Below, piece after piece: positions 1,182-3,944 of a stretch of 41,275 bases of DNA. The stretch is taken from positions 1 to 41,275 of IMG/VR virus record IMGVR_UViG_3300020451_000101; one strand, written 5' to 3'. The DNA comes from a virus. The notes beneath the pieces are model-generated. The model ran no database searches. It was not told the origin of the DNA and worked only from the letters and a program-made list of their open reading frames with translations. A program made the translations under genes and the position numbers. Positions within the stretch are counted from its first letter, which is position 1. Every line of letters begins with the position of its first letter.

Positions 1182-3944
1182 ATGGCATCTACCCAACTTT
1201 CACCAGGGGTCGTTGTACTTGAGAAGGATCTAACAACGGTTGCGAATGCGACCATTGATAATGTAGCAAGTGTTGTTGGTTCTTTTGAAAAAGGTCCCGT
1301 AAACAAGATTGTTGATATCACTTCTGAAAAGGAGCTTTTATCAGTCTTCGGTAGACCTAACGATTACAACTACGAATACTGGTACACAGCAGCTCAGTTC
1401 TTACTGTATGGCGGTACATTGAAAGTGGTACGTGGTAACTCAACTGCATTGAAGAATGCTATTGACACAGCACAATTTACACAAACAACTTTCAGTGGAT
1501 CTGATACAACCCTAACAGTAACTGCATCAACCGACATAGCAGCACAAGATTTTATCTTGATAGACGCTGAAATTATGAAGGTCACTGCTGTAGTCGGTAA
1601 CGACCTTACTGTTGATAGAGGACAGTTATCAACTGCTGCTACAAGTCACGCAGCTGGTTCACAAGTAACATTAATTGAAGACGCAGGAACATCCACTACT
1701 ATGAATCAAGGTGGAACCCTTGCTGCTGGTGGTACTTCATTAACAGTTACAGACGCATCAACACTAGGTGTTGGTACAAACGATTATATCAAGATCGCTG
1801 ACGAAATATTACGAGTAAGTAATGTTGTTGGTAACGTATTGACAGTTAGCAGAGGAGAGTTGAGTACAACTGGATCTGCACAAACTGACTCACAGACCGT
1901 TACTAAATTAATCGTTACTGCTGGTAAGACAACAATTAACGAAGCAACATCAACTGGTGTTACTGTTCCAATCATTAGAAACGTTGAGCAGTATGAAGCA
2001 TCTGTTGAGTCTGCATCTAACAACTGGAAGTGGGGTGCAAGAACACCTGGTCTTTACGGTAACTCAATAAGAGTCGTAATGACTGACGCTGGTCCTGACC
2101 AGATCCTTTCATTAGCACAACCAACATCTGCTGAGTGGGAGTTTAGTACTACCACAGATATTTCTTACAGTGCTGCAAATGCCTCTGCTAAGATTTTTAG
2201 TTATACAATCGTTGCGACTCTAGATTCATCATCTATAGCTGGGGACTTTGCTAAAGATGAAGTTTGGAGAGCAGAAACTGATGCTGGTGTAGCAATCGCT
2301 GTACAGGGAACTGTTAAAGCATACGACCCTATTACAAGAAAGATTGAACTTTCAATCAACTACTCTTTATCTTCTGATGTATTAGAAGTTGGAGATACAA
2401 TTTGTGTTTGGACAACTGCTAGTGGTGGAACTAAGACAGGAGACAAAGCAAAGATTGAATCTGTTGAAAGACAACTATCAGTTGTAACTGGTGCATCTAG
2501 CGTTCACTTCGCTGCAAACTACACACTTGCAGATGACAATGGTAGCATTTCTATTGCTTCAGTTCGTTCTGCATACGATGATCTATACTTCGGTGGTAAT
2601 CAGAAATGGTCAAACATCGCAGCAAGACCTACAACTTCTCCGTGGGTTTCAGATCGTGGTGGTGACAACGACCAAATGCACATACTTGTATTAGATGGAG
2701 ATGGAAAACTAACTGGATCACCAGGTTCAGTTCTAGAGAAGTTCCTCTTCGTATCTAAAGCATCTGATGCTAAAGGTGTACAAGGAGAAACAATATACTA
2801 TAGAGATGTAATAAAATCTAGATCTCAATACATTTACTGGGGAGCACACGAAACAGGATCCATTATGGATGTTGATGGTAGTGCTACTGGTGATATTGGT
2901 GGATCAGGTATTAGCAGATCATTTGATTTACTAAAACAGTCTGCTGCTATTAAAACTAATGAGACATCATTAGGTCGTGAAATTATTGGAACTACTGATA
3001 GTTCTACTGTTAAGTACACACTACAAGGTGGTACTGACGGATATACACTTTCACGTTCAGAGATACTTGCAGGATTTGATCTTGTTGCTGACAAAGAAAC
3101 TATTGAAGTTGACTACATCCTAATGGGTCCTTCAATGGCAGATACAAGTGACACTGTTGCTAAAGCACAGAAGATCATTGATATCGCTGCAACTCGTAAA
3201 GATTGTATCGCATTTGTATCACCTCCAAGAGGAGATATAATCGGTGTATCAGAAACATCAGTTATAGTTAACAAGACTATTGATTTCTACAATCAGTTAT
3301 CTTCAACTTCATATGCTGTATTTGATAACAACTACAAGTACATTTACGATAAATACAACGACAAGTATCGCTACATTCCTTGTAACGCTGATACTGCTGG
3401 TTTGACATTAAGTACAACACTTAATTCAGAAGCGTGGTTCTCTCCTGCTGGATTCAACAGAGGACAACTACGTAACGCAATCAAACTTGCATACTCACCA
3501 CTTAAGGATCACAGAGATAGATTGTATGCTGCACGTGTCAACCCAATAGTAGCATTTCCTGGTCAAGGAATTGTATTATTCGGTGACAAGACAGGTCTTT
3601 CATATCAATCTGCATTCGACAGAATCAACGTTCGTCGCTTGTTCTTAGTATTAGAAGATGCAATCTCTGATGCAGCAAAGACACAACTCTTTGAATTAAA
3701 TGACGAGTTCACTCGTGCTTCATTCAAGAACATTGTCGAACCATTCCTACGTAGTGTTCAATCACGAAGAGGAATTATTGACTTCCTAGTTGTTTGTGAC
3801 ACATCAAACAACCCATCCGAAGCGATTGATCGTGGCGAATTCTTTGCCGAGATCTTCGTTAAACCAACAAGGTCGATAAACTACATTACACTAACCTTCA
3901 CTGCAACTAGAACAGGTTCTAGTTTCTCTGAAGTAACTAATTGA
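1182..3944 (+). CDS. gp18: Contractile tail sheath protein
   Basis: Polymerises around the tail tube and contracts at infection. The N-terminus (MASTQLSPGVVVLEKDLT) and the C-terminal block with NYITLTFTATRTG are typical of myovirus sheath proteins. At 920 residues it is far longer than T4 gp18 (about 659). Much of the excess lies after residue 100, where two related beta-rich repeats (about 105-166 and 182-244) are inserted. The remaining extra length is in the central protrusion region around residues 260-560. The C-terminal 300 residues are the conserved polymerising core. AGGAGA at about 1170 supports the start at 1182. A late promoter precedes it and gp19 follows after 34 nt. Confidence 0.95.
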   Translation: MASTQLSPGVVVLEKDLTTVANATIDNVASVVGSFEKGPVNKIVDITSEKELLSVFGRPNDYNYEYWYTAAQFLLYGGTLKVVRGNSTALKNAIDTAQFTQTTFSGSDTTLTVTASTDIAAQDFILIDAEIMKVTAVVGNDLTVDRGQLSTAATSHAAGSQVTLIEDAGTSTTMNQGGTLAAGGTSLTVTDASTLGVGTNDYIKIADEILRVSNVVGNVLTVSRGELSTTGSAQTDSQTVTKLIVTAGKTTINEATSTGVTVPIIRNVEQYEASVESASNNWKWGARTPGLYGNSIRVVMTDAGPDQILSLAQPTSAEWEFSTTTDISYSAANASAKIFSYTIVATLDSSSIAGDFAKDEVWRAETDAGVAIAVQGTVKAYDPITRKIELSINYSLSSDVLEVGDTICVWTTASGGTKTGDKAKIESVERQLSVVTGASSVHFAANYTLADDNGSISIASVRSAYDDLYFGGNQKWSNIAARPTTSPWVSDRGGDNDQMHILVLDGDGKLTGSPGSVLEKFLFVSKASDAKGVQGETIYYRDVIKSRSQYIYWGAHETGSIMDVDGSATGDIGGSGISRSFDLLKQSAAIKTNETSLGREIIGTTDSSTVKYTLQGGTDGYTLSRSEILAGFDLVADKETIEVDYILMGPSMADTSDTVAKAQKIIDIAATRKDCIAFVSPPRGDIIGVSETSVIVNKTIDFYNQLSSTSYAVFDNNYKYIYDKYNDKYRYIPCNADTAGLTLSTTLNSEAWFSPAGFNRGQLRNAIKLAYSPLKDHRDRLYAARVNPIVAFPGQGIVLFGDKTGLSYQSAFDRINVRRLFLVLEDAISDAAKTQLFELNDEFTRASFKNIVEPFLRSVQSRRGIIDFLVVCDTSNNPSEAIDRGEFFAEIFVKPTRSINYITLTFTATRTGSSFSEVTN
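1494..1913 (+). repeat. Tandem repeated beta-domain inside gp18
   Basis: Two copies of about 60 residues share the order LTVT-AS ... I-DAEIMKV / IADEILRV ... VVGN-LTV-RG-LST, at gp18 residues about 105-166 and 182-244. The copies are diverged at DNA level, so the duplication is not recent. Similar modules recur in phage virion proteins (family knowledge from memory). Confidence 0.75.

Follow-up and report, generated by a model that had tools for sequence, protein, structure and literature searches.

A predicted twin beta-barrel insert in a cyanophage tail sheath protein, a candidate docking element in the slot of T4 gp18 domain I

The tail sheath protein gp18 encoded in the window (the whole 41,275-base stretch of viral DNA analysed here, a contig of T4-like cyanophage structural genes) carries a clean block of 163 inserted residues, 98-260, composed of two tandem modules that are each confidently predicted to form a small beta-barrel. 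In sequence alignments this block takes the position held in T4 gp18 by domain I. We tentatively propose that the twin barrels act as a docking element on the outer surface of the sheath, with a tail fibre as the best candidate for the docked partner.

Three Pfam domains above the curated cut-off were found in gp18, PF22671, PF04984 and PF17482 (residues 28-84, 639-804 and 810-909), along with a match to phrog_23 at E 2.8e-135. Solved T4-type sheaths matched both ends of the protein with E down to 1e-95 and left the middle unmatched, the T4 and KP1 structures covering residues 613-919. P-TIM40, P-RSM6, S-SZBM1 and S-WAM1 are annotated with the order terminase large subunit, sheath, tube, portal, and the order of the window ORFs around gp18, whose neighbours were named by position, matches that of these four phages. 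Judged from its sequence, gp18 is a T4-type contractile tail sheath protein, having sheath domains III/IV (the three Pfam domains) and the expected gene order. Neither a phrog_693 gene nor gp15 is present in the window contig. Within its clade the sheath diverges most at residues 262-480 (window 1965-2621; mean pairwise identity 0.550 across 47 sheaths), and a stretch similar to this one, searched alone, matched no Pfam or PHROG family.

Table 1. Positions of the gp18 features in the window, and of module copies in other cyanophage loci.
Feature	Location	Strand	Basis
gp18, contractile tail sheath protein, 920 aa	1182..3944	+	ORF in the 41,275-base window contig
gp18 residues 1-97, conserved N-terminal stretch of the sheath preceding the insert	1182..1472	+	aligned in insert-free sheaths; PF22671 at 28-84
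Insert, residues 98-260, modules 1 and 2 in tandem and a short C-terminal tail	1473..1961	+	missing as a block in 8 related sheaths
Module 1, residues 98-168, predicted strands ~110-174	1473..1685	+	profile match E ~1e-30; model strands
Module 2, residues 174-246, predicted strands ~186-252	1701..1919	+	profile match E ~1e-25; model strands
Residues 247-260, predicted last strand and hinge back to the sheath body	1920..1961	+	full-length model
gp15 carrying the module	L096 (Syn19) ORF 772-1812; L097 (S-CAM9); L113 (P-RSM6); L279 (S-SCSM1)		
phrog_693 protein carrying the module pair	L110:6044-8248 (P-TIM40); L111:4105-6318 (S-WAM1); L095 (S-H38)		
Module matches in very long open frames	W07:C1:60990-61169; W09:C1:17650-17838; W12:C1:65315-65455; and others		

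The ends of the insert are set by eight sheaths (L074-L081) that cross the site without interruption and were aligned with 47 relatives bearing the whole block; the remaining row of this 56-row alignment, L067, is a fragment. A preliminary description of this DNA had noted two related repeats at residues 105-166 and 182-244 (window 1494-1913), placed after the conserved N-terminal part of gp18 and before the remainder of the protein. That position is correct, and the inserted unit extends beyond the repeats on both sides (Table 1). Aligned to each other, the two repeats gave a BLOSUM62 score of 108, compared with a mean of 29.6 (SD 5.4, maximum 60) in 2000 shuffles. All 48 repeat-2 sequences were retrieved by a repeat-1 profile (E 8e-24 to 1e-9), a repeat-2 profile in turn retrieved all 47 repeat-1 sequences (E 4e-26 to 1e-15), and together the shuffles and reciprocal searches rule out a chance resemblance. 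As to whether the pair arose by duplication in place or was imported as a pair, the deep nodes of the module tree have support of just 45, 56 and 68. Across the 47 sheaths, the mean pairwise identity of the insert is 0.636 as against 0.550 for the neighbouring residues 262-480, and only 4 of the 163 residues of the window insert are aromatic (W, Y or F).

An AlphaFold model of the insert alone (model residue = gp18 residue minus 96) has a mean pLDDT of 95.6, a pTM of 0.88 and two sets of five main strands, so the beta-domain character proposed in the preliminary description is upheld at the level of structure prediction, as two small barrels. The full-length gp18 model has a mean pLDDT of 69.2, with the insert near 90 and the sheath core poor, and falls below 50 at residues 258-282, which suggests that the joint there is flexible or poorly predicted. 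The barrel fold was assigned from VIA-align Z-scores, which for the insert were 11.2 with the VP1 virion protein, 10.5 with the JBD30 baseplate, 10.3 with GP4, 9.6 with the Mystique tail tube, 9.5 with the LKA1 tailspike, 9.2 with a K1 capsule lyase and 8.9 with the Chi tail tip; F1-ATPase barrels also scored about 8. For module 2 against barrels in solved phage proteins, Z was 9-11. The matches listed for the fold of the insert were barrels, with no Ig beta-sandwich in that list. Foldseek searches of the insert returned no match in the PDB at E <= 0.001 and 30 matches at that threshold among viral models, the first being the S-WAM1 sheath; in addition, the insert profile matched the Chi minor tail protein (E 1e-8). 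Some phage proteins have been named by NCBI after the E1 FCCH domain. Foldseek matches of the insert to Uba1 were weak (E 0.055 and up), and a Pfam search of the insert reported no E1 FCCH-like domain model. Pfam and NCBIfam offered the module sub-threshold names only, such as BT_MCC_alpha, PDZ and lambda FII-like head-tail joining, which we treated as noise or distant fold likeness and not as its identity.

Among 176 distinct sheath regions, gathered by three similarity searches plus named phages and thus a non-random set whose proportions are not population frequencies, exactly two modules were present in 100, none in 76, and no other number occurred. The insert-bearing regions are nearly constant in length (166-174 residues). 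The module is therefore not a feature of all T4-like sheaths, in keeping with the preliminary description; the variation in copy number that it had raised did not materialise at the insert site, where this non-random set contained no one-copy or three-copy sheath. A tblastn search of INPHARED with the insert located the sheath version in the named phages P-TIM40, P-RSM6, S-SZBM1 and S-WAM1, and the best match in S-H38 fell in a protein other than the sheath. In a tree of the gp18 core, the insert-bearing phages form one clade (16 of 33 tips) with a bootstrap of only 74. Sheaths of the S-CAM9 type resemble the window gp18 in holding a divergent relative of the module, recognised because of a profile comparison (hhalign probability 97.1 against the single-module profile A4, in a single comparison), but their relative lies at another site, about residues 291-361, and their counterpart of the window insert site is empty. 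Within the S-CAM9 set, 46 of 73 proteins matched the module at an independent E < 0.01, S-CAM9 itself giving 0.14. This separate insertion accounts for the extra length of the S-CAM9-type sheaths (L112:1570-4227 and L301-L359).

In an alignment of 33 sheaths, residues 97 and 262 of the window gp18 align to residues 96 and 195 of Tequatrovirus gp18, and between these anchors lie 165-172 residues in the window clade, 2-14 in insert-free cyanophages and 99 in the T4-type phage. By this alignment, the insert occupies the slot that T4 gp18 gives to domain I (residues 98-188), which PMC3004832 describes as a six-stranded beta-barrel that protrudes outward from domain II, makes no inter-subunit contacts, and binds the baseplate and the retracted long tail fibres; three mutations in it inhibit fibre retraction. 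The preliminary description held that T4 gp18 lacks the repeats, which is true by sequence but not by architecture. The module gave no significant profile match to T4 domain I (-0.8 bits), and domain I was absent from the fold matches listed for the insert. What the two share is the insertion point in the sheath chain and the general form of a beta-barrel, predicted in the case of the insert; they differ in that domain I is single, some 90 residues long and includes a helix, whereas the window insert packs two modules into 163 residues. Because the slot corresponds to that of T4 domain I, the twin barrels likely protrude on the outer sheath face, away from the subunit contacts that drive contraction.

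The module is not specific to sheaths. The whole insert matched five PHROG families (phrog_4406, phrog_1101, phrog_2885, phrog_9851 and phrog_11439; E 1e-7 to 1.2e-10), which resemble it in sequence over the module, and the barrel has solved look-alikes in VP1, JBD30, GP4, Mystique and Chi; these are head, hub, tail, baseplate or fibre proteins and not sheaths. The A4 profile found copies in 10 of 11 named records, the T4-type phage alone having none, and in all 10 further cyanophage records. For example, one copy lies at the C-terminal end of gp15, the proximal tail sheath stabiliser or sheath terminator, in Syn19, S-CAM9, P-RSM6 and S-SCSM1; a profile search detected none in the 264-aa gp15 of P-TIM40. 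Single module matches also turn up in cyanophage open frames that are very long, about 2,400 to 6,600 codons. Together with its presence in a tail-fibre protein, the recurrence of the module in gp15 and in very long structural proteins describes a mobile barrel that decorates many cyanophage virion proteins.

The tail-fibre protein in question belongs to phrog_693, a family named tail fibre protein. Of 18 records searched for this family, 15 gave a match; S-CAM9, S-SCSM1 and P-SSM2 gave none and are left out of the comparison. A tandem module pair is present in 7 of these 15 records. All six insert-bearing phages compared (P-TIM40, P-RSM6, S-SZBM1, S-WAM1, G001 and G002) have a phrog_693 protein of 638-738 aa with the pair, and eight of the nine insert-free phages have one of 477-522 aa without the module; the exception, S-H38, combines a 678-aa protein bearing the pair with a sheath that lacks the insert. 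Of the two fibre modules, the second gives strong matches (independent E 1e-22 to 3e-29), and in six phages the first gives weak ones (independent E 0.045 to 2e-5). The fibre-module alignment covers 11 of 14 loci; for S-RIM2, S-M1 and G004, which are outside it, absence of the module comes from the profile search. One phrog_693 match (G003:C1:25020-26477) contains an in-frame stop (TAA), either a sequencing error or real. Mean identity is 45.7% between gp18 module 2 and fibre module 2, compared with 39.3% between the two gp18 modules, in a module family whose tree is weak at depth. Since the insert-bearing phages form one clade with a bootstrap of 74, the co-occurrence of sheath and fibre modules is an association within one lineage and not repeated evidence, and it may stem from two one-off events in a common ancestor, with no functional link between them.

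On the mechanism that we tentatively prefer, a tandem pair of barrels of about 70 residues each, belonging to a module family that occurs widely among phage virion proteins, would fill the domain I slot and give another tail part somewhere to attach or rest on the sheath's outer surface. The tail fibre is the best candidate for that part, since the phrog_693 protein of the same phages has a homologous module pair, and the fibres would be held against the sheath until adsorption, much as T4 domain I binds the long tail fibres when these are retracted. A long tail fibre arm folded back along the sheath is described for the cyanobacterial myophage A-1(L) in PMC10966104. Docking is favoured because the slot is the one that binds retracted fibres in T4, because the fibre modules co-occur with an insert that is conserved and not hypervariable, and because gp18 module 2 has a higher mean identity to fibre module 2 than to its own neighbour. 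The extension of gp15 by the same module in four phages and the occurrence of the solved look-alikes in hubs, a tail tube and tailspikes point the same way. Against docking, S-H38 has fibre modules without a sheath insert, six phages give weak matches to the first fibre module, and insert-free phages have the module in very long proteins, which indicates that it can serve elsewhere. A stronger version, in which the matching sheath and fibre pairs of this one clade interlock into a cradle that stores the fibres along the sheath, an unrelated mobile barrel having replaced T4 domain I, seems unlikely to us.

The twin barrels might instead be structural clasps or armour, with barrels of neighbouring subunits touching each other to stabilise the extended or contracted tail and no outside partner being involved. 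Additional sheath domains have been proposed to cement the tail (PMC9230969), the insert is fairly conserved, and, as some phages have a copy of the module in gp15, which caps the sheath, modules in adjacent rings could interact. We consider this account possible though rather doubtful, given that the corresponding T4 domain makes no contacts between subunits, that close relatives assemble without the insert, and that P-TIM40 has the sheath insert with no detected module in gp15. That the module is a passenger, a mobile virion element lodged in a tolerant surface loop and kept as harmless, would fit its scatter through many virion proteins, a slot that tolerates nothing, T4 domain I or twin modules, and the appearance of a relative at another site in the S-CAM9 type, a different sheath lineage. 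All 100 insert-bearing regions, however, have exactly two modules at nearly constant length, and the identity of the insert is close to that of functional segments, which makes an idle passenger improbable as the explanation.

The preliminary description had suggested contact with cell-surface polysaccharide, and binding to this or other envelope material as an aid to adhesion would be consistent with the similar barrels in tailspikes and a capsule lyase, as well as with the adhesive role hypothesised for extra Ig-like sheath domains in PMC9230969. The insert has few aromatic residues, and its conservation above that of residues 262-480 is unlike a fast-evolving receptor binder; Pfam searches found no carbohydrate-binding family, and the matched tailspike barrel presumably lies outside the catalytic beta-helix, which we count against this reading. 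We therefore favour it less than docking and regard it as quite improbable.

The tie between the sheath insert and a matching insertion in the tail-fibre protein amounts to a specific proposal for fibre storage in abundant marine cyanophages, in which the twin modules may help to hold the fibres against the tail. A search of open-licence PMC literature found no paper describing the sheath insert, and the twin-barrel variant, the all-or-none slot, the recurrence of the module and the link to the fibre were not met there. Additional beta domains on sheaths are known: Evseev et al. 2022 (PMC9230969) describes multi-domain sheath proteins (type 2 and type 3) with beta-rich additions to a conserved core, directed away from the tube. 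The window insert is likewise a beta-rich addition to a conserved core but differs from those additions, which are mostly Ig-like, and, among the cyanophages listed in that survey, S-RIM44, P-HM1 and ACG-2014f have sheaths of 635, 669 and 731 aa, none of the length of the 920-aa variant. Set beside T4, the comparison points to a single surface slot of T4-type sheaths that is filled in three ways: left empty, occupied by domain I, or occupied by predicted twin barrels.
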